From an uncultured Pseudomonadales bacterium (GTDB lineage Bacteria; Pseudomonadota; Gammaproteobacteria; Pseudomonadales; Azotimanducaceae), in NCBI GenBank assembly GCA_958296195.1, contig OY282455.1:3224001-3288000 (forward strand): DNA of 64,000 bases. The letters run 5' to 3'. The notes beneath the pieces are model-generated. The model saw only the letters and a list, made by a program, of their open reading frames with translations. It ran no database searches and was not told the DNA's origin. Both the position numbers and the translations under genes were made by a program. Of the stretch, positions 35,054 to 57,164 are shown one piece after another. Each line of letters opens with the position of its first letter. The first letter of the stretch is position 1.

Positions 35054-35057
35054 CGGG

Positions 35058-36294: not shown

Positions 36295-36548
36295 GGAAGC
36301 CGCTTCGCCCTTCCAGCAGGAGGTGGGGCCACTAACCAGCCAAGCCACGCCCTGCTCCACCGCCTGCGCGACGGCGTTGCGCACGGTTTCCTCCGCACAA
36401 GCGGGGATGGCGAAGGTCTCCTCATACCTTTCCTTGGGCAGGGTGGCGACATGGCTGCTGGAGAAGTAGGCCAACTCGGCCAAGGTGAGTTCGCCGGTGC
36501 GGAGTTCGTCTTTGTGGTGGGCGAAGTGCTGCTAGGGGTTGAAGGTCA
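36295..36548 (-). pseudogene. DUF499 ATPase remnant with internal deletions
   Basis: Reading leftward: a start corresponding to the N-terminus of the intact gene (LTFNP, then TAG in place of its Trp codon, then HHKDELRTGELTLAE) joins in frame to a piece from near residue 855 (LAYFSSSHVATLPKERYEE through GPTSCWKGE), then to sequence that lies downstream of the intact gene's stop (AASIQPLFGVESGL). So more than 800 codons were lost in one step and the C-terminus in another. It is the decayed twin of 39857-43135. Confidence 0.85.
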
Positions 36549-36552
36549 GTGC

Positions 36553-36866
36553 ATGGCGGGGCACAAGACCCAGTGCCAGTCGCTCACCTTTGACAACGGC
36601 AAGGAGTTCACCGACCATGCCGAAGTGGGCAAAGCGCTACAGGTGGACACGTTCTCCGCCCATCCGTACAGCAGCTAGGAGCGCGGTACCAATGAATGGC
36701 TGAACCGCCGACTGCGGCGGCACTTCCCCAAGGGGATGTCCTTGTCGGGCGTCACCGATGAGGCGCTGAACAAGGCGCTGGATCGCATCAACTCCATGCC
36801 GATGAAAGTGCTCGGCTGGAAAACCCCATATGAGGCATGCTACGGCGTCGAGAGTCGATTAACCTG
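36553..36866 (+). pseudogene. IS30-family transposase remnant (C-terminal)
   Basis: The plus strand encodes HKTQCQSLTFDNGKEFTDH, the IS30 DDE segment with its second Asp, then AEVGKALQVDTFSAHPYSS, a TAG in place of the next codon (36676-36678), then ERGTNEWLNRRLRRHFPKG, with the catalytic Glu region NE, and ends with KTPYEACYGVE. The N-terminal half is missing. The stop and truncation make it inactive. It abuts the DUF499 remnant on its left. Confidence 0.85.
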
Positions 36867-36904
36867 AAATTGCGTTTGAGAGTTGGATGTAGCGGAGAAT
36901 AATA

Positions 36905-39538: not shown

Positions 39539-39637
39539 AAATTTCCTCCTTGGCATACAGAAATGCCCAAAAACTCTTCCCGGAGGTAGGCAATTCTCTG
39601 AAATCCAATAGCAAACGTAAATACTCCCAAGCCGACT
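39539..39637 (-). pseudogene. fragment of an ABC-type ATPase gene
   Basis: About 33 codons on the minus strand: WEYLRLLLDFRELPTSGKS then FWAFLYAKEEIFSG. This matches the middle of the intact ATPase at 43761-45059 (KYLRLLLDLRELPPFGEG, FWAFLYVKEEIFNG) at nearly every position. It is directly fused to a truncated GFA gene on its right, with the junction at about 39638-39641. Confidence 0.88.
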
Positions 39638-39639
39638 TA

Positions 39640-39766
39640 TGGCCGCCATGATCGCAGCCCCGGATCAGCGCCGGCACTGGCCGCAATGGCAGGCCTCCAC
39701 ATCGGTCTCAACGTCCTCCGCAACGAAGGTTACGGCCCCGCATAAACATCTTCCGGTCATGGACAT
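39640..39766 (-). pseudogene. truncated GFA gene (5' end only)
   Basis: The first about 42 codons of the GFA gene at 35826-36233 are repeated here almost identically (start MSMTGRCLCGAV, through WSGAAIMAA) and then stop at the junction with the ATPase fragment. Upstream sequence including the ribosome-binding site is also shared. It lies just after the stop of the intact DUF499 gene, which is where the ancestral GFA copy would be expected. Confidence 0.88.
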
Positions 39767-39856
39767 GGCTGCTTCTCCCTTAGTTCGTCAGCGGACAGGC
39801 CGGATTCAACACCGAAACGGAGCTGAATGGAAGCCGCAGCGCCCTCGCCCAACCAG

Positions 39857-42800
39857 TCAAGCGCTCTTCGAGTCCGACGCCACCTCGGCCAGCAACCCCT
39901 CAACCTTCGCCTGCACCTCCGTCGGCGCATCCGCATCCAAGGACACACCCACCCGAAACCGTAGGCCGTGGCCGGCGCCGGCGTCCAGCATTTGCGGAAC
40001 CAAGTCCGCCAAGTCCTGAATCTGGGCGCCGTCAAGCTCGACATCCCTAGGCGTCGCCATTGGAGCCGACAGCGCTGGGGGTTGGCTGCGCGGCCTTCTC
40101 AACCGACATTGGCCGGCACCGTCGTAATCTTCCGCAACATGCGCAACGCCGTCGCTTCCCGCGGTCTCCAACCAGCGGCTGGCCACGGCGGTGCGGATGC
40201 TCTCGCGGACCAGGCCCCAAGGAACCGCAGCCCCTTGCTGGTGGGACAAAGCCTGCATAAGGGCGGCGCCATTCGTTTCCCCCTCGGCCCAAGCACTCGG
40301 CAGAGCCTCCTCAGTGAGACCCTGCGGAGGGATCATCTCCGGCGGCGGGCGCAGCACAGCGTCACTGTCAAGCACGCCGTGCGGAACGCGCTCCTTCCAG
40401 CAGGAGGTGGGGCCACTAACCAGCAAAGCCACGCCCTGCTCCACCGCCTGCGCGACGACATGGCGCACAGTTTCCTCCGCACAAGCAGGGACTGTGAAGG
40501 TCTCCTCATACCCTTCCTTGGGCAGGGCGGCGACATGGCGGCCGGAGAAGTAGGCCAAGATTTTGCGCAGCGGCAACGGCCCTTCCTCCCACAGCGCCGG
40601 CAACTTGCCCGGCGCCAGCAACCCTTGGGGCAACTCCGTGAGTTCGGCCTTTTCGGGCAGCACCACTTCCAGCATCGGCTCCGCGCCGGCGCTTTCGTCC
40701 GGGCGCTCCCGCCACCAAGTGCGCAAGGTGCCGTCCGGGCGACGCAGCCGAGCCACCAGCAGGCCGCGCTCCACGCCTTGCAGCACGGTGTCCAGAACAA
40801 TGCCTGGGCGCAGCATCTTGGGCAGGCGCGGATCCCGGGAGAAGGCGCTGGCCAAGTCCTTGACGAACCGGGCTTCCTCGTCCTCGCGCCACAGGTCATA
40901 AGGGCCACCCGGCAGCAGCGCCTCGGCATCCACCACCGTCTCCTTGATGCGCGAGCGTTCGTCGTTCTTGATCTCTTGAAACAGCGGCCCGGCGGCGGCG
41001 GCGAGCTTGAAGGCCTGAATTGCGTTGCTCTCATTCACCGTGACGACGATGGCGTAGGCTTGGCGCACCAGCGCCGGAACCTGCTGCTTGGCGTCCTGCA
41101 GCTTGCGCCGCAGGCGTTCGCTGCGCAGCGGGTCCACCGTCTGACTCTGCAGCTGGCGCTGCACGTCCTGCCAACCAAGCCAAGTGCGCACACTGCTGCG
41201 GGCGGCCTCCAAGCCATCCCGGGAGGGCGCGACCAGCACCAAGGCGTTGCGATGCACCCTAGGTCGTTGGGGACCGGTGGTTTCGTCGATGTAGCGCTTC
41301 GCCGCGAGGCTGGGCTTGCCGGAATCCGACGCCGCCTCCGGGCCGAGAATCACATAGCGAAAGGTGCCGTCGTCGCCAACATCCCGAGGCGACGCGGGCA
41401 ACAGATGCGGCTTCGCCCCCGCCGCCGACGCGCCGCCGTCCAAGGCGCTTCTGGCGCTGCGGATGGCCTCGATCAGCGCCGCATCCACGTCGCCGTCGGT
41501 AATGTGCTCGCGGCAGGCCTCGTCGTGCATCTGCTTCAGGTTGGGGCGGTTGCCCAGCCGCCAAGCCTTCGGCAGCGCCTGGGATTCCCCCTCCTGAACA
41601 TCCTCGTCGTCCAGGAACCAGGAGATTTCCCGCCAGCGGCGCAGCCCCTTCTCCAGCTCGATGGCGTCCGGCGCGGCGCTGCCGGCCATGCGCAACAACT
41701 CCGGGGTGTTGGCTTTGCCGCCGGGGGGCTGGGAATGCAGGAAGACGGCGATGACCGCCTGCTCCGGCTCGCGGGATTCCCTCAGTGCCGGAAACTCGCC
41801 TTGTATCTGCCGAGCCTTAGCCAACTCACTCTCCAGCAGCCGCGCCCAATCCGTTGTGCGACCGACACCGCCGGAATCCGCCACGTTGGCCAGTTCCTTC
41901 ACCGCATCCGAAGCCGTCTCCTCTTTGGGCGCGGCCAGCAGGGCTGCCGGGCCGATAAGGGGGCAAAGGTCCCACCGCTCCGCTTCCCGCAGCGCGGTGG
42001 CCAGGGTGCGAAGGATGCCGCGGGTGCGTTGAAAGCCGTCGAGTTGGGTCCAGCGGCTGTAGAAAACATCCGCCAGGTCGGGGTGGAACGGAAAGCTCTC
42101 CAGAAAGCGGCCTTCCGCCGCAGAGCGATCCTTGGCAGTGGTCTCATCCAGCTTGGCCAAGCCGCCCACTACGCCGATGACATGGGAGCGATAGGCGTCC
42201 TCGTCGCGCAAGCCTTCGCCAGTAAAGAAGCGCCGCCGCAGAATTTCCGCCACGTCCTGCTTGCGCACTGGCTGCACGCCTTCCTCCCGCTGCCGGCGAA
42301 AGACGCTGAACAGTTCGTCCGTCAAACGGCGGCCTAGGTCGCCCTGCTGCTTGGCCGGGTCCGTGGCTAGCAGCGAGGCGACGATGGCGGCGCTATCGAC
42401 CTTGACCACCGCTTGGGTGAGGTATTGAAAGAAATCGACAAGCCGCTCCCGCCAAACGGGGGCGATGCCGGCCTTCTCCCGAGCGTACATCAGCACTTCA
42501 TCCACCAAGATCAATGTCGCCAGCCCTCGCTGGGCAGGCATTTCAATGAGCTTGGTCAGCAGCGGCTCCGCCGGTGGGGTTTCCCGCTCCTCGTCTCGGC
42601 CATCCCCGTGAATGGCCCGCAGCCCGTCAGCACCGGCCAATTGAAAGGCCAGTACGCTCCACGGGTGGCGCAGGGTGCGGGTCTCCCCATCCGCGCCGCG
42701 CACATTCTCGATGCCCTTCTCCACGTCGATCTTGTCGAAGCAGAGCGTGGCGATGAACGCCTGTGGCAACGCCATGCCGACATGTTCCCGAAACTCCCGC

Positions 42801-43135
42801 ACCGCCGGCACGTCCGGCAATCTCGTGGGGTCTCGGAAGAGGTGGTACAGAGCGATGAGCGTGTGCGTCTTGCCGCCGCCGTAGGTGAGCTCCAACTGCC
42901 GCACCGCCTTGTCGCTGCGCCCAGCGAGCCGCACGGCCACATCCTTGACCAGTTCCCGCAGGGTGTGAGTGGGATAGGTGAGCGCAAAGAACTGCGCCGG
43001 GTCTTCATAAACCGGGCGCTTGCCCCGAGCCAGGGTGACTTCGTGGAGGTCCGCGGCGAACTCGGCCAAGGTGAGTTCGCCGGTGCGGAGCTCGTCTTTT
43101 AGGTGGACGAAGTGGTGCCAGGGTTTGAGGGTCAT
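39857..43135 (-). CDS. DUF499-domain ATPase of the defence operon
   Basis: 1092 residues. N-terminus MTLKPWHHFVHLKDELRTGE; Walker A in LELTYGGGKTHTLIALYHLF and Walker B ATLILVDEVLMYAREKAG, then a long helical region and a C-terminal domain. COG1483/DUF499 ATPases are found next to DUF1156 (COG1743) methyltransferases and relate to the BrxC/PglY ATPases of BREX-like systems. It overlaps the preceding gene (ATGA) and ends the operon. A decayed duplicate lies at 36295-36548. Confidence 0.9.
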   Translation of the reverse strand: MTLKPWHHFVHLKDELRTGELTLAEFAADLHEVTLARGKRPVYEDPAQFFALTYPTHTLRELVKDVAVRLAGRSDKAVRQLELTYGGGKTHTLIALYHLFRDPTRLPDVPAVREFREHVGMALPQAFIATLCFDKIDVEKGIENVRGADGETRTLRHPWSVLAFQLAGADGLRAIHGDGRDEERETPPAEPLLTKLIEMPAQRGLATLILVDEVLMYAREKAGIAPVWRERLVDFFQYLTQAVVKVDSAAIVASLLATDPAKQQGDLGRRLTDELFSVFRRQREEGVQPVRKQDVAEILRRRFFTGEGLRDEDAYRSHVIGVVGGLAKLDETTAKDRSAAEGRFLESFPFHPDLADVFYSRWTQLDGFQRTRGILRTLATALREAERWDLCPLIGPAALLAAPKEETASDAVKELANVADSGGVGRTTDWARLLESELAKARQIQGEFPALRESREPEQAVIAVFLHSQPPGGKANTPELLRMAGSAAPDAIELEKGLRRWREISWFLDDEDVQEGESQALPKAWRLGNRPNLKQMHDEACREHITDGDVDAALIEAIRSARSALDGGASAAGAKPHLLPASPRDVGDDGTFRYVILGPEAASDSGKPSLAAKRYIDETTGPQRPRVHRNALVLVAPSRDGLEAARSSVRTWLGWQDVQRQLQSQTVDPLRSERLRRKLQDAKQQVPALVRQAYAIVVTVNESNAIQAFKLAAAAGPLFQEIKNDERSRIKETVVDAEALLPGGPYDLWREDEEARFVKDLASAFSRDPRLPKMLRPGIVLDTVLQGVERGLLVARLRRPDGTLRTWWRERPDESAGAEPMLEVVLPEKAELTELPQGLLAPGKLPALWEEGPLPLRKILAYFSGRHVAALPKEGYEETFTVPACAEETVRHVVAQAVEQGVALLVSGPTSCWKERVPHGVLDSDAVLRPPPEMIPPQGLTEEALPSAWAEGETNGAALMQALSHQQGAAVPWGLVRESIRTAVASRWLETAGSDGVAHVAEDYDGAGQCRLRRPRSQPPALSAPMATPRDVELDGAQIQDLADLVPQMLDAGAGHGLRFRVGVSLDADAPTEVQAKVEGLLAEVASDSKSA

Positions 43136-43764
43136 GGATTTTCACCCGGAAACCAGCTTTGCAGAGTGCTCTTGAGGTCATGAAAGGCGGCGTCTTGACA
43201 GTTTGCAAAATTCGCCACACTAGCGATCTGCTCATACATTCTTGGCGAAGGTATTCGACGCGTGCGTTTCATCACCCTGCTCAGAGCCGCTTTTGGATCC
43301 CGTGGTTTCAACGCTTCGGCCGGCCATACCCCTTGCTCGCTCAACCAATTGCGCAAATCGCTGTATTTGTTTTTCCAATGCAAGACCTGAGCTATTTCGG
43401 GGTAGCCCCAAACCCATGCCTCCAATTCAGGATCGATCACTATGGCTTTAGATCGATCTTCCCAGCCATTTCTGCGCAAGTCTCCCTCGACGTGATTTTG
43501 AATATCTTCCCTAGAAAGGCTACTGCCGCATCCATGATGGTCAAACAAAACCAAGCTGTAACGGAATCCACGAATATATTGCCTTAAATAGTTCACCGCA
43601 TCGGTTCGGCATCCGGGATCCTTATTTGGATGTCGAATGACATGAGAATCAATTCGAGCGACACCAAGGCTCTCGCTTCTGTCAAGCAAGCTCCTTGTAG
43701 CGTACTCCATATGCGCGTCGGCAACCAGCACGATAAGATCCTTTTGTCGTGCCGCCTGATTCAA
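43132..43764 (-). CDS. small partner of the second ATPase (Toprim/DUF4276-like)
   Basis: 210 residues, ATGA overlaps with the genes on both sides. It begins with a beta-strand and acidic residue (LIVLVADAHMEYATRSLL), has an acidic/His strand SLVLFDHHGCGSSL, and then VIDPELEAWVWGYPEIA. This order of Glu, D-rich strand and DPELEAW resembles Toprim-like nuclease partners (DUF4276 and the partners of overcoming-lysogenization-type ATPases in PARIS- or MADS-like systems). Family membership is inferred, not certain. It likely acts as the effector controlled by the ATPase upstream. Confidence 0.7.
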   Translation of the reverse strand: MNQAARQKDLIVLVADAHMEYATRSLLDRSESLGVARIDSHVIRHPNKDPGCRTDAVNYLRQYIRGFRYSLVLFDHHGCGSSLSREDIQNHVEGDLRRNGWEDRSKAIVIDPELEAWVWGYPEIAQVLHWKNKYSDLRNWLSEQGVWPAEALKPRDPKAALSRVMKRTRRIPSPRMYEQIASVANFANCQDAAFHDLKSTLQSWFPGENP

Positions 43765-45059
43765 GACATCACACCTGTAGCAAACAATGCGTTCATATCA
43801 ACCGAACCTTGCCAATCCCTAAGAATGGGATGGCGGTCGCCTCGAATGATATCCGTTGCGCCTTGTTCATCTTTTGCAAAGCAAAGAACTTCCCTCGGTT
43901 CCGCCAATCCCAAAAAGGTAGGAGAATGGGTCGCCACAAAAACTTGGGAGTCGTACGCTGACGACAGCGAATCATAAATGGCGTCCAAAGCTAGCGGATG
44001 GATGCCATTCTCGGGCTCCTCCAGCAAATATATCTGGTTAGCGTGTGGCAAATAGGGGATTAGAGTAATGGCAAGAAAACGCAATGTGCCATCGGAAACC
44101 ATCCATGAAGGCACTTCCACCCCCGTTTTGTATCTGAGCATAAGGTAAGCGCTGCGATCATCCTCTCGTTCCACAATGCGAACGCCTTCCAAGTCAGTGA
44201 GCATGGTTTGCACATGCGAGAGCCATTCCGCAAATTCATTCCCGTGCTCTTGTTGCAGTTGCATGACCAACCAAGGAAGATTCCAGCCATCGGATGAGAA
44301 TTTGCTGCGCCGAAAATGAGGCGGGCATGGCTGACGAATCTTTTGGCTATCCAAAAACAGAGGCTTGATGCCGTTGAAAATTTCCTCCTTGACATACAGA
44401 AACGCCCAAAAACCCTCCCCGAATGGAGGCAGTTCTCTCAAATCCAATAGCAAACGTAAATACTTCAAAACCGACCTATGCCGACCGAGTTCTATCTCAA
44501 TCGGCAAAGCTTGCGACCTTGGAGCCTCTCTAGTGTCTTCCAAAATGATTTTGACCTTATTTCCTGACCTGAGAAAAACGGGAAAAACTCCTTTTCCCCT
44601 GCGTCTTAATATTGTTTTGGGGGGGAGGACAGATTCCGGGAAGTAGGAAACCCCTTTATGTTGAGGCCGCCGGTTCGGTTTCGGAATCAGCATCGCGCTC
44701 TCGAAATCTATGCCAAAACTTTCCTCATCTTCCCTTATGCGCACTTCGTAACGAAGGCGTTGGCGGTCAATTTGGGCAGTAGGCGCTTCAGCGATATCGG
44801 GCGGAAAATCGAACTCCAAAGCCAACTCAAATCCCATATCCCGGTTGGGCCGATTCCAAACAAGGTCCTGAAAATTTTGAGTGCGTTTCTCCATTGCCTC
44901 CATAAGGCCGTCACGCACCAAATCACCAAGGAAGCTGATCACGTCCAACAACGTGCTCTTGCCGCTAGCATTGGGGCCAACCAAAATATGGAAGCTGTCT
45001 AGGTGGACATCCACATAGCGCAGGCAGCGGTAGTTCAGGGCTTGTATGCGGCGGATCAT
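43761..45059 (-). CDS. ABC/OLD-type AAA_21 ATPase, second of two
   Basis: 432 residues. Walker A VGPNASGKSTLLDVISFLG at the N-terminus (with the RF-type opening MIRRIQALNYRCLRYVDVHL), ABC signature-like VSDGTLRFLAI, Walker B YLLEEPENGIHPLAL and the H-loop ATHSPTFLGLAEP. This is the AAA_21 architecture of OLD, Gabija and PARIS ATPases without a fused nuclease. It is followed with an ATGA overlap by the small partner. A fragment of a twin gene is at 39539-39637. Confidence 0.9.
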   Translation of the reverse strand: MIRRIQALNYRCLRYVDVHLDSFHILVGPNASGKSTLLDVISFLGDLVRDGLMEAMEKRTQNFQDLVWNRPNRDMGFELALEFDFPPDIAEAPTAQIDRQRLRYEVRIREDEESFGIDFESAMLIPKPNRRPQHKGVSYFPESVLPPKTILRRRGKGVFPVFLRSGNKVKIILEDTREAPRSQALPIEIELGRHRSVLKYLRLLLDLRELPPFGEGFWAFLYVKEEIFNGIKPLFLDSQKIRQPCPPHFRRSKFSSDGWNLPWLVMQLQQEHGNEFAEWLSHVQTMLTDLEGVRIVEREDDRSAYLMLRYKTGVEVPSWMVSDGTLRFLAITLIPYLPHANQIYLLEEPENGIHPLALDAIYDSLSSAYDSQVFVATHSPTFLGLAEPREVLCFAKDEQGATDIIRGDRHPILRDWQGSVDMNALFATGVMS

Positions 45060-45071
45060 GGCGCAATTCTA

Positions 45072-45503
45072 TCAAAAAGATGCACGGGGCGGTTCGATCC
45101 GAAATGGTCGGTCGTGGACGCGGTAGGTCTCAAAGTCGTTGTGGTCGATGGTGAAAACGAGATCAGTGGATTCCCGCTCCGCGACATGCACTAGGGTTGC
45201 GTCGGCGAAGTCCATTGAGCGGTCTGAGTATTGCGCCATGAGAGCGGACAACGCCGGCAAGTCATCGTCATCCACCCGCACTACAGTCACCGCATCGGAC
45301 AACACGAAGTTCCATGCATGTTCGAGCAAATTCCAATTCCTGCGGCGGTGAAGGAGGTGGAAAACCTCCGCCAACACTGCCGCCGTCGTGGCGAGCGGCA
45401 GCCGCAACCCGCGATAAACCTCCGCACAGGGCCCGTGCCAAGGATCCGCTTTGTTCAGCAGCGCCAATATCGGCCCTGTGTCGATGATTCCCCTAATATC
45501 CAT
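45072..45503 (-). CDS. PIN-domain protein inside the defence operon
   Basis: 143 residues. PIN signatures: IIDTGPILALLNKADPWHG (first Asp), LAEVFHLLHRRRNW (Glu) and DRSMDFADATLVHVAE (two further Asp). It overlaps the preceding gene by 11 bp and ends 12 bp before the second ATPase. No antitoxin is adjacent, so it may be an effector nuclease of the operon or a VapC-like toxin restrained by a neighbour. Confidence 0.88.
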   Translation of the reverse strand: MDIRGIIDTGPILALLNKADPWHGPCAEVYRGLRLPLATTAAVLAEVFHLLHRRRNWNLLEHAWNFVLSDAVTVVRVDDDDLPALSALMAQYSDRSMDFADATLVHVAERESTDLVFTIDHNDFETYRVHDRPFRIEPPRASF

Positions 45504-46107
45504 ACTTCTTGGCCAGAATCTCCCTCACTTGTCGGCCAGAATCCTCGGCACGCAGAGAGGCATCGTTTATCACCCCGATCAGCGGCGCCACTTCCACATG
45601 CAGCCGGCGCTGTTCCTCCGCGTCATCACTGGACAGGTCGTTGCGGTCGAGCCACTCGCGGCTGGTGACTTCAACTAGGCTGGCAGCGCTGCCAACTTCG
45701 GCGTCTCCCACGGCGGCCCTCACTTCACCAGATAGGTCCGGCACCCAAAGCGGCGCTTGGGGATCAAAGCTCTTCAACAGCCAACCGCTTAGGCTTTCCC
45801 ATGCGCCCTCACCCCAAAAAGTGCGGCGGCGCACAAGAGCTTCATTCGATCCGCCAAGATCTGCCTCCTGCCCCTGCAAACCGTTTCCGTCCAGGCATCG
45901 AAGGAAGATGTGGACGCGGTTGGCGTAGCGCTCGACGATTTGGGCAAGCCCCTGCCCACTGGATGCGCTCAAGGGGTCGGTTAGCGGCTCGCACAGGGGG
46001 CGAATGCGGGCCGCTGGATCACCCGCCGCTTGCAGCCATTGGCTCAACAACGGGAGAAGGTTCCGGTGGGACGCATTTTGATCCGCTGGAATGATGATGA
46101 CGTTCAT
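45493..46107 (-). CDS. small partner of the first ATPase, fold not recognised
   Basis: 204 residues from ATG 46107, which overlaps the ATPase stop as ATGA. It begins MNVIIIPADQNASHRNLLP and has strands such as RVHIFLRCLDGNGL and a helical C-terminus. Its position after an AAA_21 ATPase mirrors that of the Toprim-like partner at 43132, but the acidic Toprim residues are not clear (PADQN rather than an E-containing motif), so it may be a diverged or different effector. Confidence 0.7.
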   Translation of the reverse strand: MNVIIIPADQNASHRNLLPLLSQWLQAAGDPAARIRPLCEPLTDPLSASSGQGLAQIVERYANRVHIFLRCLDGNGLQGQEADLGGSNEALVRRRTFWGEGAWESLSGWLLKSFDPQAPLWVPDLSGEVRAAVGDAEVGSAASLVEVTSREWLDRNDLSSDDAEEQRRLHVEVAPLIGVINDASLRAEDSGRQVREILAKKYGY

Positions 46108-47501
46108 GATGATTGATCCGGTTCGCCATCTTGCGAAAAATAAAGAATGTCCTCCATCCAACCAGTCGAGTGCAGCTTGCGCAACCCCTGGGAGCGCCGC
46201 AGCTTCTCCGCATTGGGCAACTTCGCCACGGGGCGTATGATGGCATCCGCAGTGTCCGGGTTGCGGCAAACCACGGAGGTGTTCTGGAATGTCTCGTCGC
46301 CTGCCATTGCCAGCAGGTCGGGAGAGTGGGTGGTGGTGACCACTTGGATGCCGCCGCCTGTTGTTTGGCTTTCGATCAGCTCAACCAGCAGATGTTGGCG
46401 GGACGGGTGAATGCCCCTGTCGATCTCCTCGAACACATAGAGGCCGGGGCGGTCCGTTCCCAGCAACGCAGCTAGTATCCCCAGAAAACGCAAAGTGCCG
46501 TCTGACGCGGAATGGCCCGACACCTTGTTGCCATTCTTCTCCCTGATGAACAACTGGACACGTCTGGACACCGGATCTTCGGGGAACTCGAAGTCCGCCA
46601 CATCCATTGGCGTAAGCTCGCGAGTCCACTCGAGCAGCGTCTTCCTTCTGCGCGGGTCGTCGCAGATGGCTTTCAATACCGTTGGCAGGTTTTCGCCTCC
46701 GTCGCCTAGCACTGTCTGGCCGGGAAATGCCGGTTCACACATTTGTGATGGCGATGGGTCGAGAAAGCGCATGTTCCCAAGACTGCCTGCAACATGACGA
46801 GCGAGGTCTTTGTGCGCCTTGCGCACTGGCCGGTGTTCCCCGATCTGCGTTAGCGCCGGCTGGTCGGGACGCACGGCAATCCGGTGCCCGTATTTTTTTT
46901 GGCGGGCCACCTTCTCCATACGAATCTGCAAGTGGAGCTCGTCGTCTTGGTTTCCCACCGGATCGGGTACGGGCGGACTACTTGTATAGAACGTTCTCAC
47001 CCACGCCTTACTCTCCTTAACAAATTCAAGTTGAGAAGATTGGATTGTTTGCCGTGGAGAGCTCCCCAACAATGGCAGCCACGCATACAACTCCTCTTGG
47101 CCCACACGGAAGGCACCGCCTTGCCGGTCGTCTGGCTTGACCAAAACGGCGTAGGCGATGGCGGATGGGTCCTTGCGTAGCCCCAATGCGGATCGTAAAG
47201 ACTCATGGCTTTCCTGCAACGCGAGGTCCACTTCCAACTTGAAATGGTCTTGACCTTGGCGTATGACTTCCGCAGGCGCCCCGCGGATCTGCTGCCACTC
47301 CACTTGGCCGCCGGCGCCGTACTTGCCGCCGAGGATGTCCGCCAAGGTGTAGCCCCGCCCAACGCCATGCAAGAAACGCAGCGCATCGCGGATGTTGCTC
47401 TTGCCGCTGGCGTTGGCGCCCACAATGATCGTGAACGGCCCCATGTGCAGGGTTTCGTCGGCGAAGTTCTTGAAGTTTTGCAGCCTTAGCGCAGTGAGCA
47501 T
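46104..47501 (-). CDS. ABC/OLD-type AAA_21 ATPase, first of two
   Basis: 465 residues. Opens MLTALRLQNFKNFADETLHM; Walker A VGANASGKSNIRDALRFLHG; signature-like SASDGTLRFLGILAALLG; Walker B YVFEEIDRGIHPSRQHLL (second acidic is Asp after Ile); H-loop TTHSPDLLAMAGD. Same design as 43761-45059 but only moderately similar, so an old duplication or separate acquisition. Starts 2 bp after the DUF1156 gene. Confidence 0.9.
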   Translation of the reverse strand: MLTALRLQNFKNFADETLHMGPFTIIVGANASGKSNIRDALRFLHGVGRGYTLADILGGKYGAGGQVEWQQIRGAPAEVIRQGQDHFKLEVDLALQESHESLRSALGLRKDPSAIAYAVLVKPDDRQGGAFRVGQEELYAWLPLLGSSPRQTIQSSQLEFVKESKAWVRTFYTSSPPVPDPVGNQDDELHLQIRMEKVARQKKYGHRIAVRPDQPALTQIGEHRPVRKAHKDLARHVAGSLGNMRFLDPSPSQMCEPAFPGQTVLGDGGENLPTVLKAICDDPRRRKTLLEWTRELTPMDVADFEFPEDPVSRRVQLFIREKNGNKVSGHSASDGTLRFLGILAALLGTDRPGLYVFEEIDRGIHPSRQHLLVELIESQTTGGGIQVVTTTHSPDLLAMAGDETFQNTSVVCRNPDTADAIIRPVAKLPNAEKLRRSQGLRKLHSTGWMEDILYFSQDGEPDQSS

Positions 47502-47503
47502 GG

Positions 47504-50500: not shown

Positions 50501-50980
50501 CTCGCAACCCAACCGCATAGCTTCCAGCGGAATGGCCCCGCCACCGGCAAACGGGTCCAGAACGCGGGGCGCCCGACCGCCAAAGGCCTGCCGAATCTCT
50601 TCCCGGAAAGCCTCAATCCCAACACCGGAACTAGCCCCAGCCTCGACCCCACCAGCGGACTTGCCGCCATCCCCAAGACCTTCCCGGCCCCAATGCAGTA
50701 TGCCGCCCCGAGTTTCCTCCCGCATCCGCTCGCCCTTGGCGTCCGGCGTCTCCACCACCTTTCCGGCCATGCGCCGCAACAGGTCCCCCCGCCCCTCCCG
50801 AGTGCCAGGGTCAGGCAGCAAGGTCGCCAGCAAAGCCGCCCGGCTAGCCGCCAAAGGCCGCCGCGCCGGCCAGATGTGCAGGGTGGAGATATGCCCGTGG
50901 CGAACGTTCTTCTCGTGGACGGAGTCCAGAGAGACCTGTTTGAGGGGGAAGGCAGCTTCGATTAGGCGGCGGTCGGTCAA
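47504..50980 (-). CDS. DUF1156 DNA methyltransferase with zinc ribbon (COG1743)
   Basis: About 1158 residues from TTG 50980, chosen because it gives the family start LTDRRLIEAAFPLKQVSLDS and overlaps the upstream stop as TTGA. Next come HGHISTLHIWPARRPLAASR (DUF1156), SAM motif I VLDPFAGGGAIPLEAMRLG, two CxxC pairs (CAGCRKEVPL and CPCCGV), and the catalytic motif TDPPYYDAIPYSDLMDFFH, the adenine-type DPPY. It probably methylates host DNA to protect it. These enzymes cluster with DUF499 ATPases and SNF2 helicases in defence islands. Confidence 0.92.
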   Translation of the reverse strand: MTDRRLIEAAFPLKQVSLDSVHEKNVRHGHISTLHIWPARRPLAASRAALLATLLPDPGTREGRGDLLRRMAGKVVETPDAKGERMREETRGGILHWGREGLGDGGKSAGGVEAGASSGVGIEAFREEIRQAFGGRAPRVLDPFAGGGAIPLEAMRLGCEAVASDLNPVAWFILRCTLHYPRLLAGQRRPLPEFALRDRAFVAAFLKGQGVKGQKALRQCLAALGHGEGGSDVGQNTVHEGMQTLLALGCSDGSLGVGRSLTGGADQTGSALNQRGRSKPSAVPTSADLLDASVSVEADFAWHLRAWGQRILERARRALAARYPTYAEFEPVRRKGRGRQQVQLARRYRPRPPQLLVPDAEGRVSAAALNAEFDSLYLEDAANPRWVAKPTVAYLWARTVRCAGCRKEVPLLKTRWLCKKGAKRVLLTMTPGEDGVAFGIEEDVPTGGAAQRQQSDQQLGAGTMSGSGATCPCCGVTAAMADLRAAGCAGQLGERLTAVVADGQQGKEYRLPTEEEVSAARIEEEALANLYAELPFGLPEEPTPDEHSLGMRIPKYGFDTWRKLFTNRQLLALGTFIREMRSLWVEEEPAALTGNIGGQNDYPNEWREAAEVGKKRSVRGHRLGDYPKGWREAAATYLSCVFSKLTDYSSTVCSWHNGRETIGHTFARFALPMVWDYCEVNPLSESSGGFAGMLDWLSRYLDHSLVATRSAPQPQVLRQSAAETLPGTFDLICTDPPYYDAIPYSDLMDFFHIWLRRALCGLSPETDAVFAEPLGPKWNAAANDGELIDDAARFGGDKAASKRNYEDGMARSFSRFHEALRDDGRLVIVFANKQPDAWETLVSALIRAGFVVVGSWPIQTEMQNRQRSLSSAALSSSIWLVCRKRPAAARPGWDRQVLAEMQANIRERLRDFWDAGIRGPDFVWAATGPALEAFSRHPVVKFTDAPGARLTVAEFLRQVRRMVVGFVVSRLFEAGDGALQELDDPTTYYLLHRNDFGLAAAPAGACILYALSCNLADADLAGRLDLLARGKGAAPAEDEDGGKDAEAQTSGSEARLKPWNRRRAKDLGEPAADGRSPPLIDCLHRLMRLWKTGEQNRVDAYLENRGLWRHELFARVVQALIELAEAGSDERAILEYIQNHLAAQGAAAAPRQEALLSG

Positions 50981-51990
50981 GGGTTGCTGCCCGCTATGTG
51001 CTTGCGCCAGAGGTAGCTGGCGAACGAGGCGCAGGCACCAAGCATGAACACCGCTTCGTCCATCCCGACGCTTGCCTGCTCTCGGTCCAGCAGGGCGTGG
51101 CGAATGCCCTGCTCGTCCGAAGAGTAGCCGTATAGCTTGCTCCAAGCCTGTTTGAGCGCCGGATGCAGAGCGCTCCGTTTTTCTAGTGACCGCACCGCCG
51201 GGGCAAGAGACGACGACGCTTTTGAGTCAAGCTGCCGCGCCACGGACTCAACCGCATGAACACTCTCTCGAATACTGTCAGCCCAATCGCCCTGATTGAT
51301 GCATTCGGCCGACTTGCGCAGATGCGATGCACCTCCTTGCAGCCCCCCCTGATCAAGTGCTCGCAGGGAGCTCAAAACTGCTTCGCCCTCCTCGGTTGTT
51401 GCTGCCGGGAAGATAGTGGGCGGCGGGCCAGAATCAATCACGTACGCTAGCCGACAGTTCCCGAAGACCATGCACATATGCAAAACAAAATCCCGAGGGC
51501 ATTGGGAGTCGCGCATGATGAACTGAATAAGGTCAAAGACTCTGTTGAACGCTTGTCTTTCGATCCGGTCGCGCATGCCTTCGCGAACCAGCGTAAAGCG
51601 GTCATCCCACTCATCCGCTGGATTGCCGTCGTAAACAGCATGCACTCGCTCCAAAATGCTCTTCCATGGGTCCACTACGTATTTTTCATCCACATAAAAT
51701 TTGGTAGAGCGGCTAAGCCAGAAGTATAATGCGTTCCAAATCTGAACCCTTGCTTCAGTTGGCAATTCACCAAGATTTAGCGGTTCGGGAAGTTCCTCAT
51801 ATCCTTGCGCCTGCGAAAAACTCAACTTTCGGGGATCAAGCTGAACGCTATCTGAAACAATGGATCGTGCGACATCGGTTGGAACCATTTTGGACCTTCT
51901 CCGAGCCACAAACGCGGCTCGACGCATGGCGGCCTCAGCTCCAACTAGGTCCGGGTCGCGCGGTTTGGATTGATTGCTGGTCAAACTCAT
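50977..51990 (-). CDS. AbiJ-like abortive-infection protein
   Basis: 337 residues, ATGA overlap with the zeta-like gene upstream. The middle N-terminal region LGELPTEARVQIWNALYFWL resembles the AbiJ N-terminal domain 4 pattern (short strand then an aromatic helix), and the C-terminal helical domain HPALKQAWSKLYGYSSDEQG-IRHA is the conserved AbiJ C-terminal segment. AbiJ-type proteins are linked to abortive phage defence; mechanism not established. The residue range 1-60 is basic and unassigned. Confidence 0.75.
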   Translation of the reverse strand: MSLTSNQSKPRDPDLVGAEAAMRRAAFVARRRSKMVPTDVARSIVSDSVQLDPRKLSFSQAQGYEELPEPLNLGELPTEARVQIWNALYFWLSRSTKFYVDEKYVVDPWKSILERVHAVYDGNPADEWDDRFTLVREGMRDRIERQAFNRVFDLIQFIMRDSQCPRDFVLHMCMVFGNCRLAYVIDSGPPPTIFPAATTEEGEAVLSSLRALDQGGLQGGASHLRKSAECINQGDWADSIRESVHAVESVARQLDSKASSSLAPAVRSLEKRSALHPALKQAWSKLYGYSSDEQGIRHALLDREQASVGMDEAVFMLGACASFASYLWRKHIAGSNP

Positions 51991-52508
51991 TTCTGGCCCT
52001 CGTCTATCAGTTTCGGCACTTCCTCCGAATTGTCATACAGCGCCCATGCATCAACTAGATGCCGATAGAACTTCTCAAAGTTTTGCCAACCGACATCGTA
52101 TCGCCGCCTAATGACGGGTTCAGGGATGTCGTGCCCCCCTTCGGCCACTCGCTTCGCAACCCGCTGCACAGCGAAATCAGATGTCGGCAATCGAAGGAAG
52201 ATTAACTTCACGCAATAGCCTTGTTCGCGCCAATATGGAATCCAGCGAGTGTAGCCACGACCGCTCAGCGTGGTCTCGAAGGCGAAACTTTTGCCCTGCG
52301 AGACATGTTCGTGGATTTGTTTCAGCATCAATTTTCCAGCTTGGATACTCACGGCCTTGGAACGAAATGGGTCCAGTCCTGCTGCAATAAAGTCGGCGTT
52401 GACAAAGACCGGACAGTCCGCCTCATTGGGCAGGAACTCGGTGGCGAACGTTGTCTTTCCAGCGCCATTCGGCCCGGCGACGATGATTATCTTCTTGTCT
52501 TGACTCAT
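51987..52508 (-). CDS. zeta-toxin-like P-loop kinase
   Basis: 173 residues from ATG 52508 (MSQDKKIIIVAGPNGAGKTT). Walker A AGPNGAGKTTFATEFLP, then VNADFIAAGLDPF and FAFETTLSGRGYTRWI, the substrate-binding order of zeta/AAA_33 kinases that phosphorylate UDP-GlcNAc or related targets. The C-terminal region has RVAEGGHDIPEPVIRRRY, the zeta arginine motif. No epsilon antitoxin is seen. Such genes often sit in phage-defence operons. Confidence 0.85.
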   Translation of the reverse strand: MSQDKKIIIVAGPNGAGKTTFATEFLPNEADCPVFVNADFIAAGLDPFRSKAVSIQAGKLMLKQIHEHVSQGKSFAFETTLSGRGYTRWIPYWREQGYCVKLIFLRLPTSDFAVQRVAKRVAEGGHDIPEPVIRRRYDVGWQNFEKFYRHLVDAWALYDNSEEVPKLIDEGQK

Positions 52509-52555
52509 TTTGCTTTGCGGTAGGGCATCAGCCACTTCGCCTCTCTCACGATGGC

Positions 52556-53734
52556 CTAGTGATTTTCCCCGCAAGTCTGGCAATGCGCCCGCAAGCCGCT
52601 GACACCTTGGATCTCCTTTTCGCTAATTTTGCCGTCCTCCCAAAGCCGGAACTTTAGGCCGCGCAAAGCCGCTGGCCGATAATCCGGCACCTGGACAAAC
52701 CGTTGGCCCACGGATGCATGCAAAACGGGCAGGTCTCCCTCCGCCCGGCTGGGCCGGTCGTTGTCGCTGACGTATATGGACCGCACATCTTGGTCAAGCA
52801 TTGCGGCCATTGCGCCAGTGTGGGCGTGCAGCGGGCCGTTGATGAGCGGATTGACCGCAATGTCGTCCGCATCGAGGCCGGCAAGAGCGTCATCTTGTTC
52901 CGCAAGCAGCTTGCGGATGCTGTCTGGGTCACCATCAGCTATGGCGATGGCGTCGCCGAGCGTCTCTTTGCAGCGGTCGATCATGAAGGCAAGGGCGTTG
53001 TCCGAAAGCCCGTCCGCCCAACAGCCGCCGCCGACATCTCCGTGAACTCCGGGAAACCAAACCTCCAGAATGCGGTCCGGGTTGTCGGCATCCTTGTTCA
53101 TCAAGGTCGGGGTGAAGCTCACCCGGTCCTCGTCAATGGCGACCAGATGCACCGCCCTTTCGATGCGGGGATTCAAGGTGCCGTCCTCAAAGACCACATC
53201 GCTGCTGATCTTGTCGCCTTGGCGATGAATGCCGTTCATGGCGGCTACGGTGTCGAACACGCCTAGGAACGACACCTTGCAGTGCTCATGGTCGCGCAGA
53301 AGGATGCTGGCAAACTTGCGGGCCAAAGCAGCGCCGCGGCTGTAGCCGAAGATAACCAGAGTGTCTCCCTCTTGGTAATCCGCGCCGTCGAAGTCCTCCT
53401 TGGCGTCATCGAGTATGCGCTTGGCGTCTCCGAAGCCCGGCGCAACCATCATGTTCAGCATAGACCTGCCGGAGTGGTACAGCTTGCCCAACAGCGGAAT
53501 CCGGCTTTTGCCCTCCCTAGCGCCAATGCCGTTGTAGTAAAAGGCCATCTGCGGCTGCCCACTGGGCGTGGCCGTGGGCGAGCGGTCTTCCGCAACGCCG
53601 CCGCCCATCAATATGTGCAGCTTCAAGATGTTGGTGATGCTCTCATCCTCCTTGAAGCCGCTGGCATCGCCCGGATCATTGCTGGTGCCGTCAAAGCAGA
53701 AGGTCAAGGTCTTGGGTGCGTTCTCGTCGGCCAT
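52556..53734 (-). CDS. DUF2235 alpha/beta hydrolase (phospholipase-like)
   Basis: 392 residues with AGGAG 6 nt before ATG 53734. It opens TLTFCFDGTSNDPGDASG, has the nucleophile elbow VIFGYSRGAALARKFASI (GxSxG as GYSRG) and FLGVFDTVAAMNGIH, the DUF2235 signature. Many DUF2235 proteins are T6SS lipase effectors, but here the gene sits between a helicase and a kinase, so membrane attack as an abortive response is a plausible role. The gene ends about 48 bp before the zeta start. Confidence 0.88.
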   Translation of the reverse strand: MADENAPKTLTFCFDGTSNDPGDASGFKEDESITNILKLHILMGGGVAEDRSPTATPSGQPQMAFYYNGIGAREGKSRIPLLGKLYHSGRSMLNMMVAPGFGDAKRILDDAKEDFDGADYQEGDTLVIFGYSRGAALARKFASILLRDHEHCKVSFLGVFDTVAAMNGIHRQGDKISSDVVFEDGTLNPRIERAVHLVAIDEDRVSFTPTLMNKDADNPDRILEVWFPGVHGDVGGGCWADGLSDNALAFMIDRCKETLGDAIAIADGDPDSIRKLLAEQDDALAGLDADDIAVNPLINGPLHAHTGAMAAMLDQDVRSIYVSDNDRPSRAEGDLPVLHASVGQRFVQVPDYRPAALRGLKFRLWEDGKISEKEIQGVSGLRAHCQTCGENH

Positions 53735-53840
53735 TGCAAACTCCTACCTACTCCAGTTGCTGTCCGTGCCGATTTTCCTTAAGCCGCCCAGCTGGCAGTA
53801 TCCCTGTTCGCCCGTTCAGTTTTCAAGGCGTGGCGCTGCG

Positions 53841-56800
53841 CTAACCATCCGCCGCCTCCAGCAGCGACTTCGCTGAAATGGAGTATGCCGAAGTTCCCCG
53901 GTTGGTGGCTAGCAGTTGGTGGAACGGGTTGCGCACCCGCACTAGCTGCGGGGATGGCGTGGCGCAATCGAACACCACATAGAGCCAATAGCTCTCGCCA
54001 AGATTGCAGGCCTGCGTCCATTCGTTGACCTCCATCTGCACCGCGCTTTGTCCGGCGCGGCCCTTGACTTCGATGCAGCGCCGGCTGCCGTCGGGTTGGG
54101 TGCTCAGCAGGTCGAAGCCGGGCCAGTTTGGCAGGCCGGCGGCGCGGGACAGCGCTGGATTGGAGACGTCCAGCACTTCGGCACCCCGCTGCCGCTCCCA
54201 GGCGCTGGCGATGCGCACAGCCATTTCCTCAATGCGCTCGTCGTAGTGCTGCACTTCGTCCGCAGCCGCCGCCGGCACCGCCAAGGCGTGGAGCAGGAAC
54301 CGAACCTCGCCCAGCGCGATGCGCTCCGGCGCGGTTGCCAAGGCCGCGAACGCCTCTGACCGCTCAGCGGCGAGCGCCCGCTGCTCTTGCTTCACTGCAT
54401 CAAGATCGTCGGCGTCCGCATCGTCACTCTTGGCCAACGCTTGGGCCAGCCGGGTGCGGCGGGTGGCTAGCTCCGCGGCCCGCAGATCAAAGCCGGCGGC
54501 CAAGCGGCGGCGGCGTTCCGGCAACTCGGTGCGCAGGGCGTCGCGGCGTTCCTCGGCGAACTGGGTTTCCGCCAGTCGGTTGAGGAAGCGGGCGGCGTCC
54601 GCCCTCATGCCGATGCCCCGGCTGGCCAGCGGCACCGCGCCCGGTGCGATATGAGCGGCGCTGTGCAGCAGGAGCAAGGGTTCGACGGCGCTCTCCACGG
54701 GTTCGCTGTCCGCTTCCTGGCGCAAAGCCAGCAGCCGGTGCTCCAAGGCTTGCGGGGTGGGTTCGCCGGCGTCCAACTGCACCGCCGCGATTGCCAAGTG
54801 AAACAAATAGGGCGCATCCGCCTTGGGGTCGATGAAGATGGCGCCGCGCAAGGCGTCGTGGGAGAAACGGGAGAGGACCTGCTCAGCCAGCGCATCGAAC
54901 ACCGGTTCGCCGGGATGCAGCCAGATGCACTCCCCGTCCTGCTCCGTGCGGTGGACGCAAAGGCGGGCTTGGGCCGTCGTTGCGGAATAGCGCTCCAACG
55001 CCGGCAGCAGGCCGTCGAGGACACCTGAGCGTTGCGGCGCCAAGGCGAAGTGGCCGTCCAAGTCGCCGTGGATGTGCAAGCCCAACAGGGCGGCGCTTTT
55101 CTCCACGAACCGCCGCACATAGCCGGGCAGCAGTTGCAGGTAGCGCTCCCGCCGCAAATCGCCTTGCAGGGCCTCCAAGCGGGCGACCACCTCGCCCCCG
55201 GTGCCGTAAACCCTTTCCTCATCCGCCCTGATGCCGGCCACCCGTTCGCCGGCCAGCGCCTCGCCGATGCGGGCCTTGGCGCTGCGCTCCCCTTTATCGG
55301 TCAACGCCTCGATCATGTAGTCCTTAAGGGAGGCGTTGTCGAACAGCCGACCGATCACGTCGAACACCTTGTCCGAATGCATTTCCCGGCGAATCGCCTC
55401 GAGCTTTTCCAGCAGCACCTGCAGCACCCGGCCCTCCCGGGTGCTGGCGGCCACCAGATTGACGATTCGCACGTCCCGCTGCTGGCCGTAGCGGTGAATG
55501 CGGCCCATGCGCTGCTCCAAGCGGGCCGGGTTCCAAGGGATGTCATAGTTGGCCATCAGGGCGCAGAACTGGAGGTTGATGCCCTCCCCCGCCGCGTCCG
55601 TGGCCACTAGATAGCGGGCGCCGTCGGTTTGCCGGAAGCGCTGCACCTGCTGCTCCCGTTCCGGCCAGGCCATGCCGCCGTGGACTTGCGCCACCCGCCC
55701 GGCGTGGCCCAGCCCCTCCAAGCGGCGGACCAGATAGTCCAAGGTGTCCCGATGCTCGGTAAAGATTAGCCACTTTTCCTGGGCGTAGCGCGGATCCTCC
55801 AGCACCTCGCGCAGCCTCTCGAACTTGGATTCGTTGCCGGAATCCAGAATGGCCCGCGCCCTGGCGCCTAGGTCTTCAAGGGTCTGCAACTCGCTTTGCA
55901 AGTCCTCGATGGTGGCCGCCACCACGGCACCGAGCACCGCGGTTTCAAAGTCCTCGCTGGCTTCCCGGCCGCCTTCGGTGCCGGCGTCCTCGTCCGCGCC
56001 CTGTTCGTCAAAATAGTCCGTTCGGTAGCGGCGGTCCAGGTCGCGCTGGCGGCGGCGCAGGTCGCTGGCGCTCAGGCTGCCGTCCTGCAGTTGGGAGACG
56101 GTTTGCCGCAGCTTCTCCATGCGCCGCTGCAGGGAGCGCAGCAGCGCCCAGGAGGAACTGGCAAGACGCCGCTGAAAGACGCCCGTGGCCAGCCGCGCCG
56201 CGCCCGGATTGCCCAGCGCCCGGTCATAGAGATCGCTCAGATAGGCGCTGGCGGCGTCGTACAGCGCTTGCTCCCCGTCGGAGCCGGCGCTCAGTTGGTA
56301 GCTGAAGGTGTCGCAGAAGCGCTGCCGGTAGAGCGGTTGGCCATCCAACCCGACCATCTCCTCCTTGGTGCGCCGAATGAAATGGCGGCCCCGGTCTTGC
56401 TGCGGGAAGCGGCGGCAGGCTTCCCCGGTGGCGAACACCAAGGGGTCCAGCAAGCGCCACAGGTGGTGGTAGGGGGAAGCCTTGCCCATGTGCGGGGTGG
56501 CCGTCAGCAGCAGCAGATGGCGGGCGCACCAGCGCAGCCCGGCGTAGTCGCCATCGGGCGCGGCGCAGCCGGCCAACACCTCCGCCAATTGATAGCGCCG
56601 GGTCTTGTGGGTACGATGGTTTTCCGTGGTCGCCGCCAGCTTGTGCGCCTCGTCGAAAACCACCAAGTCGTAGGCGGGGGTGTCGGCGCTGCGCAGCCGG
56701 TTGAAGACGCCTTCCCCCGCCAAGGTGTCCAAGGAGACGATCACTAGGTCGCTGCCCTCGCCGCAGAAGGGATTGTCGGTGCGGGCGTCCGCGCCGCTGA

Positions 56801-57164
56801 GGATGCGGAACGACAGCTGGAACAGGGTGCGCAGCTCCCGCTCCCAGTTGCCCACCAAGCCGGCCGGCGGCACGATGAGCACTCGCCGGATGCGCCCCCG
56901 GCCCAGCATTTCCCGCACGGCCAAGCCGGTCATGATGGTCTTGCCGGCGCCGGCGTCGTCGGCCAGCAGGAAGCGCACCGGCTCCTGGGCCAGGATGTGC
57001 TCGTAAACCGCGATGCGCTGGTGGGGCAGCGGGTCGATGCGGGAGATTTCGCTGGCGAAGGCGGGGTTGAACTGATGCCCGAAGGCCAGCCGATGGGCTT
57101 CCGCCACCGCCGCAACCGCATCTGGGTTGCCGGCGAAGTCCAGAGCGGGCGACACGCTGGCCAT
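53841..57164 (-). CDS. SNF2-type helicase with C-terminal DUF3883 (Mrr-like) domain
   Basis: 1107 residues. Helicase motifs in order: LADDAGAGKTIMTGLA (I), VVFDEAHKLAAT (II), LLLTATPHMGKAS (III), IFTEHRDTLDYLVRRL (IV), VATDAAGEGINLQFC (V) and RMGRIHRYGQQRDVR (VI). A long coiled coil follows; the last about 110 residues are DUF3883, with PGFDLLS and CIEVKGRAGQSAV giving a D...ExK nuclease-like core. It resembles helicases of DISARM-like and BREX-like loci. First gene of the operon; about 106 bp before the DUF2235 gene. Confidence 0.92.
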   Translation of the reverse strand: MASVSPALDFAGNPDAVAAVAEAHRLAFGHQFNPAFASEISRIDPLPHQRIAVYEHILAQEPVRFLLADDAGAGKTIMTGLAVREMLGRGRIRRVLIVPPAGLVGNWERELRTLFQLSFRILSGADARTDNPFCGEGSDLVIVSLDTLAGEGVFNRLRSADTPAYDLVVFDEAHKLAATTENHRTHKTRRYQLAEVLAGCAAPDGDYAGLRWCARHLLLLTATPHMGKASPYHHLWRLLDPLVFATGEACRRFPQQDRGRHFIRRTKEEMVGLDGQPLYRQRFCDTFSYQLSAGSDGEQALYDAASAYLSDLYDRALGNPGAARLATGVFQRRLASSSWALLRSLQRRMEKLRQTVSQLQDGSLSASDLRRRQRDLDRRYRTDYFDEQGADEDAGTEGGREASEDFETAVLGAVVAATIEDLQSELQTLEDLGARARAILDSGNESKFERLREVLEDPRYAQEKWLIFTEHRDTLDYLVRRLEGLGHAGRVAQVHGGMAWPEREQQVQRFRQTDGARYLVATDAAGEGINLQFCALMANYDIPWNPARLEQRMGRIHRYGQQRDVRIVNLVAASTREGRVLQVLLEKLEAIRREMHSDKVFDVIGRLFDNASLKDYMIEALTDKGERSAKARIGEALAGERVAGIRADEERVYGTGGEVVARLEALQGDLRRERYLQLLPGYVRRFVEKSAALLGLHIHGDLDGHFALAPQRSGVLDGLLPALERYSATTAQARLCVHRTEQDGECIWLHPGEPVFDALAEQVLSRFSHDALRGAIFIDPKADAPYLFHLAIAAVQLDAGEPTPQALEHRLLALRQEADSEPVESAVEPLLLLHSAAHIAPGAVPLASRGIGMRADAARFLNRLAETQFAEERRDALRTELPERRRRLAAGFDLRAAELATRRTRLAQALAKSDDADADDLDAVKQEQRALAAERSEAFAALATAPERIALGEVRFLLHALAVPAAAADEVQHYDERIEEMAVRIASAWERQRGAEVLDVSNPALSRAAGLPNWPGFDLLSTQPDGSRRCIEVKGRAGQSAVQMEVNEWTQACNLGESYWLYVVFDCATPSPQLVRVRNPFHQLLATNRGTSAYSISAKSLLEAADG

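Follow-up and report, generated by a model that had tools for sequence, protein, structure and literature searches.

Systems of the Hma kind are described in PMC12839542 as type-1 BREX-related and DUF499-centred, with an ATPase, a DUF1156 N6-methyltransferase and a helicase that carries a C-terminal nuclease in 79% of that study's taxa; the functional account given there is its authors' inference together with one cited experiment. The same paper gives a published precedent for reading such loci as core plus cargo, and defence genes embedded between Hma genes have already been reported (PMC12255303, PMC12111858 and PMC12988326), the Hma-embedded and phage-defence candidates (HEC and PDC) going back, by way of these three papers, to the Payne et al. 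2024 preprint. Here we describe a locus of this type in a 64,000-nucleotide stretch of DNA (hereafter the window), which forms positions 3224001-3288000 of the single-contig, 4.31-Mb genome of an uncultured Pseudomonadales bacterium. The locus is very probably a divergent Hma operon that acts as a chassis with two slots for exchangeable cargo. Within its lineage the order of the core is fixed; the cargo is exchanged, with joints that are exact to the gene and a scar of old cargo in one relative, and it has a lower GC content than the core.

The operon consists of eleven open reading frames (ORFs), all on the minus strand and running from 57164 down to 39857, in the following order:

53841..57164, minus strand: HmaA, core gene 1, an SNF2/Swi2 helicase with C-terminal NOV_C (PADLOC HmaA 3.7e-163; Pfam Helicase_C, SNF2-rel_dom and NOV_C)
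52556..53734, minus strand: Tle1-like/DUF2235 alpha-beta hydrolase, slot 1 (Pfam PF09994 5.8e-40; GYSRGA and HGDVGGG in the sequence)
51987..52583, minus strand: zeta-like P-loop kinase, slot 1 (Pfam Zeta_toxin 1.8e-9, AAA_33 5.3e-8)
50977..51990, minus strand: AbiJ_NTD4 protein, PADLOC PDC-S32, slot 1 (Pfam 3.3e-8, 34.6 bits against a cut-off of 34; PADLOC PDC-S32 2.1e-50)
47504..50980, minus strand: HmaB, core gene 2, DUF1156 N6-adenine DNA methyltransferase (PADLOC HmaB 1.7e-122; DUF1156 1.4e-18; DPPY in the sequence)
46104..47501, minus strand: M07A, OLD-type ABC/AAA_21 ATPase of the PDC-M07A family, slot 2 (Pfam AAA_21 1.1e-31; PADLOC PDC-M07A 2.1e-60)
45493..46107, minus strand: P1, partner of M07A, slot 2 (alignment of 10; TOPRIM-like motifs in relatives)
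45072..45503, minus strand: PIN-domain nuclease, slot 2, acidic residues retained (Pfam PIN 2.5e-10; alignment)
43761..45059, minus strand: MAD3-family ATPase, slot 2 (NCBIfam MADS3 430.1 bits, cut-off 420; PADLOC best HEC-01A 4.6e-43)
43132..43764, minus strand: MAD4-family partner, slot 2 (NCBIfam MADS4 218 bits, cut-off 160)
39857..43135, minus strand: HmaC, core gene 3, DUF499-type AAA+ ATPase (PADLOC HmaC 1.3e-74)

A preliminary description of the window had reported these eleven same-strand ORFs, their order and coordinates, their mostly overlapping stops and starts and their families, all of which hold, the families being recovered by Pfam and PADLOC (HmaC by PADLOC only, with no Pfam match). 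In slot 1, a gap of 106 bp after HmaA is followed by overlaps of 28 bp (Tle1 and zeta), 4 bp (zeta and AbiJ) and 4 bp (AbiJ and HmaB); in slot 2, the joints are a gap of 2 bp after HmaB, overlaps of 4 bp (M07A and P1) and 11 bp (P1 and PIN), a gap of 12 bp before MAD3, and overlaps of 4 bp on either side of MAD4. Seven of the ten joints are thus overlaps, and nine overlap or are separated by 12 bp or less. The 28-bp overlap depends on a TTG start for zeta, an inner ATG giving a gap of 47 bp, and the start of HmaB was taken as the TTG at 50980 rather than the TTG further upstream with which the longest ORF begins. The gap after HmaA leaves room for a second promoter; terminator-like sites are not above chance (13 against 18.3 in shuffled sequence).

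By their family matches, genes 1, 5 and 11 form a divergent Hma (type-1 BREX-related) core, so that the known defence type recognized in the preliminary description can be named (PADLOC; PMC12839542). The NOV_C domain of HmaA covers residues 1015-1069, and the motif IEVKGR is present in the protein. NOV_C is the former DUF3883. It is a domain of the PD-(D/E)XK type, in keeping with the description in PMC12839542. The locus therefore has the helicase with a nuclease-type C-terminus, the DUF1156 N6-methyltransferase and the DUF499-type AAA+ ATPase of Hma, and differs from it in its eight cargo genes in two slots and in HmaB and HmaC scores below the NCBIfam anti-phage cut-offs. DISARM was considered and rejected, the NCBIfam DrmD helicase model scoring 319.1 bits against a cut-off of 610. 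The same genome holds at least two more Hma loci, L068 (G000:C1:491000-510500) and L069 (1688000-1707500, where three separate stretches match HmaB), as well as a DUF1156-helicase pair (L070, 57500-77000); in its best-matching stretch, HmaB of the window shares 35% identity with the canonical HmaB found in its own genome.

A single HmaB scan of genome contigs yielded 29 relatives, all in metagenome-assembled genomes (MAGs). Their HmaB proteins share 45-88% identity with that of the window over the best-matching stretch, their hosts belong to Pseudomonadota, Acidobacteriota, Gemmatimonadota, Spirochaetota and Thermodesulfobacteriota, and by their bin names many presumably come from sponges. HmaA, HmaB and HmaC are all present in 26 of the 29 (L048, L049 and L051 having one core gene covered over only 70-87%), and the cores of L057, L060 and L067 are cut by contig ends. 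In all 26 with a full core the arrangement is HmaA, slot 1, HmaB, slot 2, HmaC on one strand, with 172-7191 bp between HmaA and HmaB and 56-4158 bp between HmaB and HmaC. In 24 of the 26, one slot or both measure 1 kb or more; in L053 and L066 neither does. The eight-gene cargo set of the window was found in none of the 29, including the 26 with a full core, and the single composite eleven-gene system of the preliminary description is accordingly not supported. That description had also held that the unit would be a chance cluster if homologous loci had the extra genes only here and otherwise scattered. The absence of the set from all 26 full-core relatives agrees with half of this, but its members are not confined to the window: of 27 loci, 8 have M07A with P1 in slot 2 and 5 have AbiJ in slot 1 (window included in both; AbiJ partial in L046 and L041).

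The slots of the relatives are filled with other genes, several of them of known or candidate defence families as had been suggested for the window: SIR2-APAZ and a short Argonaute (L039), PDC-M38A/B (L040), a ThsB-like TIR protein (L047), HEC-07 (L065), PDC-M71A/B and NsnB (L062), HEC-01B (L064), a C5 methylase (L041) and a restriction-type HATPase gene (L046), with KAP/PifA-like, ApeA-like and DUF3800 proteins besides. The slot scans took in 22 relative slot proteins of 136 slot ORFs (window included, many probably spurious), 20 of which were sent to PADLOC; 14 of these match a PADLOC family at E 0.001, one of them weakly (L041 5394-7661 at 1.2e-4). Of the 18 cargo families looked for, a retropepsin-like aspartyl protease recurs most, being present in slot 1 of 11 of the 29 loci (L039, L042-L045, L048, L050, L051, L058, L059 and L062); the L039 copy has no PADLOC match. 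The HmaC rows of L060 (which covers a quarter) and L061 are without difference and their MAGs bear the names of two different phyla, which points to an error in binning.

Among 28 further stretches (L068-L071, L109-L128, L135-L138), 11 have the order A-B-C, five C-B-A (L124-L127 and L136) and 12 are incomplete. The A-B-C order is thus a feature of the lineage of the window and its nearer kin, not of all DUF1156-helicase-ATPase loci. Both L068 and L069 are A-B-C loci with OLD-type ATPases in slot 2. In the lineage of the window such ATPases fall 12 times in slot 2 and 4 times in slot 1, against 14 and 57 for other ORFs (p 4.6e-5, kinship ignored).

In each of the 27 loci the pooled GC of the cargo is lower than that of the core; in the window the core lies at 0.66-0.68, and the lowest values, 0.49-0.55, belong to zeta, AbiJ, MAD3 and MAD4 (0.49-0.50 for the MAD3-MAD4 block), which are the genes missing from the operon of L039. 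Changes of cargo state are frequent on the core trees, with roughly one change per carrier for AbiJ and KAP: on the HmaA, HmaB and HmaC trees, respectively, AbiJ requires 5, 5 and 4 state changes for 5 carriers, KAP 4, 4 and 4 for 4 carriers, M07A 5, 5 and 6 for 8, 8 and 7 carriers, and MAD3 3, 5 and 4 for 3, 5 and 5 carriers. The phylum of the host, by contrast, is clustered on the HmaC tree (7 changes against a shuffled mean of 12.8). The trees exclude sequences that have more than one in-frame stop (HmaA of L052 and L062, HmaB of L063, HmaC of L039 and L066).

The closest relative, L039, with HmaA 95.6% and HmaC 92.3% identical over the best stretch, allows the exchange to be seen in place. 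Two of three slot-1 genes and two of five slot-2 genes differ, and Tle1, M07A, P1 and PIN persist. The two changed blocks are:

50972..52578, minus strand: block holding zeta and AbiJ in the window, its place in L039 being taken by an aspartyl protease, SIR2-APAZ and a short Argonaute (blastn against L039)
43138..45059, minus strand: MAD3-MAD4 block between PIN and HmaC, 1.92 kb, absent from L039 (blastn)

The first lies between the final bases of Tle1 and the opening codons of HmaB; around the second, the aligned pieces lie only 16 bp apart in L039. SIR2-APAZ with a short Argonaute, the system called SPARSA, occupies slot 1 of L039, and of L040 as well, where the window has zeta and AbiJ, and is not found in the window operon. 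HmaB itself is 80-100% identical between the two loci in each 50-residue segment except residues 601-650 (26%, 24 gapped) and 651-700 (54%). This diverged block of about residues 601-700 is probably the target-recognition domain, an insert being expected there from the description in PMC12839542. Downstream the loci have a common flank (L039 19361-22310 and window 33373-36314, 96%); upstream, blastn of the window operon against L039 gave no match beyond the first codons of HmaA. In L041, a 71-residue 3' remnant of AbiJ, 53% identical, lies directly before HmaB and behind different cargo, a scar of old cargo.

L039 1-1670, upstream of its operon, matches 173 places in the genome of the window, in the form of units of about 200 bp in arrays spaced about 340 bp, plus a dispersed piece resembling an insertion sequence. 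Downstream of HmaC, the window holds the remnant of a second HmaC at 36306-36548 (80- and 170-bp matches), and two copies of a 204-bp flank, one at 39642-39845 and the other at about 36110-36314, enclose 3 kb of sequence in which a plus-strand ORF of 877 residues has no Pfam match; window 36000-39857 is a local duplication with an insertion.

Like the published HEC and PDC candidates (papers cited above), the M07A and S32 families of the window bear PDC names and belong to defence genes lying between Hma genes, whereas P1, the Tle1-like gene and PIN have no PADLOC match, and PIN follows P1. The A gene of PDC-M07 is present; P1 has no Pfam, PADLOC or NCBIfam match, so that for P1 and two homologues the B gene is without a PADLOC model match. 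All 8 P1 homologues of the intact form (L048, L054, L055, L065, L129, L131, L132 and L139) retain E8 and D74-x-D76, which the window and L040 have lost, with A in place of E and D-x-N or D-x-A in place of D-x-D; L039 is as the window. PIN accompanies M07A and P1 in three of their eight slot-2 loci, and it adjoins the degenerate P1 in 3 of 3 (window, L039 and L040). Directly downstream of intact P1 no PIN was found in 7 of 8 by the PIN model and by inspection of the ORFs by eye, the contig of the eighth, L129, ending about 160 bp further on. The PIN model is narrow, being built from three close sequences, and its absence of matches would by itself be weak; it misses the short PIN-aligning ORFs that directly follow the more distant M07A ATPases of L133 and L134, which have no P1 (Pfam PIN 0.0018, below the cut-off, for the former and nothing for the latter). 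L130 has M07A with neither P1 nor PIN, and L043 has both P1 motif halves in two frames and no PIN match. The P1 model was built without L043 and L048; the alignment includes L048 from its own start and leaves out L043, whose P1 is split. The three degenerate cases may represent one event.

P1 may have a TOPRIM fold, to judge by the spacing of its motifs and by a weak model in which strands and helices follow the order expected of that fold. The structure models are weak (mean pLDDT 47.6 and 61.3); with them Foldseek found nothing at E 0.001, and its 50 listed matches include no TOPRIM, a PDB profile search for P1 gave nothing below E 1, and hhalign against three partner families was weak. P1 is probably a non-catalytic partner, and a change of effector from P1 to PIN within the module is conceivable, if rather short of probable. 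PMC12839542 reports OLD-ABC ATPases paired with PIN in place of TOPRIM in BREX and related systems; in the sections consulted we found no description of a three-part form with a degenerate partner.

The second ATPase pair was originally called PARIS-like, as was the first. The resemblance stands, in that each OLD-type ATPase adjoins a small partner as in AriA-AriB; membership does not, AriA being outscored for both ATPases (by PDC-M07A for the one and by HEC-01A/MAD3 for the other), with no AriB match for either partner. MAD3 and MAD4 score above their NCBIfam cut-offs for the methylation-associated defence system (MADS), as M07A does not (MADS3 95.5 bits, cut-off 420). In contrast to MADS, the pair is cargo here, missing from the L039 operon, and the remaining MADS genes were not found at strength in the window operon by PADLOC or by an NCBIfam scan of ten proteins, the weak PADLOC cross-matches being of the mad2 model to HmaB (3.9e-8) and the mad8 model to zeta (1.7e-4).

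A rival explanation is a passive defence island, with the slots as tolerated insertion points and the cargo without functional or regulatory tie to the core. The cargo is variable and has its own GC; the MAD3-MAD4 pair lies downstream of HmaC in L061, the only window cargo family found outside the slots, where the survey was limited to those families; and M07A with P1 occurs without an Hma gene in the stretches of L129, L131, L132 and the plasmid L139 (7.4-18.6 kb). We nevertheless consider this explanation unlikely, since the window cargo is on the same strand and overlaps the start codons of HmaB and HmaC by 4 bp, and since at least one slot is filled in those 24 of 26 relatives (with the survey outside the slots limited as just stated).

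The slot-1 genes raise the question of whether part of the cargo is antiviral at all. The closest solved relatives of the Tle1-like hydrolase by sequence are Tle1/type VI secretion phospholipase-type proteins (6.3e-7 and 1.8e-5), and its homologues, in 14 of 398 genomes searched (own included, 13 others), have no Hma, zeta or AbiJ match around them in 12 stretches (those of the 13 other genomes without G257), several of them short (3.4-10 kb). This also counts against the reading of the locus as a chassis for defence cargo. With the lack of a PADLOC family, it would suit a view of the Tle1-like hydrolase and the zeta-like kinase as hitchhiking toxin or housekeeping genes. Among the 29 related loci, however, Tle1 occurs only in L039, where it has stayed 95% identical next to exchanged genes; zeta is present again in slot 1 of L052, the second of its two loci; and a C5 methylase adjoins the Tle1 homologue of L105. 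On balance, non-antiviral cargo is about as improbable as the passive island. A weak match to the M07A model lies beside the Tle1 homologue of L100. The PDC-S32 model match spans AbiJ residues 55-331 on model positions 6-281 of 285, which places AbiJ in that family; its homologues at E 1e-25 are found in 2 of 299 genomes, own included. With this rarity, and no Zeta or AbiJ match near Tle1 homologues in the 12 stretches, a conserved Tle1-zeta-AbiJ module was rejected.

One integrated machine needing all eleven genes together is very unlikely indeed, for despite the same strand, the tight overlaps and the persistence of Tle1, M07A, P1 and PIN in L039, by which some subset could be obligate, none of the 29 relatives has the set, and the 26 with a full core carry other cargo or, in two cases, hardly any.

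The core-plus-cargo reading has to be set against several further observations. HmaB reaches 168 bits against a cut-off of 1000 for NCBIfam DUF1156_antiphage, and HmaC 71.7 bits against 1200 for DUF499_antiphage, so that functional equality with tested Hma systems is not given. Sigma-70-like sites are not above chance (4 against 3.3 in shuffled sequence), so that a single promoter for the operon is no more than a possibility. The lower GC of the cargo may come from the type of gene rather than its origin; the aspartyl protease requires only 4-5 changes for 10-11 carriers, so some of the recurrence of cargo is by descent; and 6 of the 20 scanned slot proteins have no PADLOC match, two of them P1 homologues. 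The slot-2 preference of OLD ATPases is not significant in the 11 other loci of order A-B-C (5 in slot 2 and 4 in slot 1; p 0.22), which include two, L122 and L123, from the lineage of the window, and a general rule to that effect was dropped. Core genes of L045, L052, L062, L063 and L066 have stops over the matched span, and HmaC of L039 (15955-19232) reads in two frames, owing either to a real frameshift or to an error of assembly, so that this copy may be dead or misassembled.

If the locus is nonetheless a divergent Hma chassis, its working can be sketched from the families involved. HmaB would methylate self DNA at its target, and the ATPase HmaC with the helicase-nuclease HmaA would attack unmarked DNA. 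The cargo would be a second line of mostly self-limiting modules, expressed together with the core, and any phage able to block the core would then face a further response: in slot 1 from the hydrolase of phospholipase type, the zeta-like kinase and AbiJ, and in slot 2 from the M07A OLD-type ATPase with its probably non-catalytic P1 and the PIN nuclease, followed by MAD3-MAD4. Back-up defence by most of the cargo is a reasonably likely role. We infer shared transcription and a defence function, and that cargo is transferred by recombination in the conserved core genes flanking each slot. A bolder proposal, which we put forward tentatively and with more doubt than the effector change alone, joins the two parts: a cassette-exchange chassis in which the core genes serve as recombination arms and cargo and target-recognition block are swapped whole, and in which a dead TOPRIM-like adaptor was kept while a PIN ribonuclease took over cutting.

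In the literature searched, which excluded the Payne et al. 2024 preprint, we found no description of how Hma-embedded genes enter or leave. What is new here is the cargo set of the window, the mapped joints, the L041 scar and the ATPase module with a degenerate TOPRIM-like partner and PIN. The M07A-P1-PIN module may represent an effector swap inside one defence family. The window and L039, two close relatives, share their downstream flank and differ by two changes of cargo at exact gene borders and by one block of the methyltransferase HmaB, and so make the route of exchange testable by sequence and by experiment.

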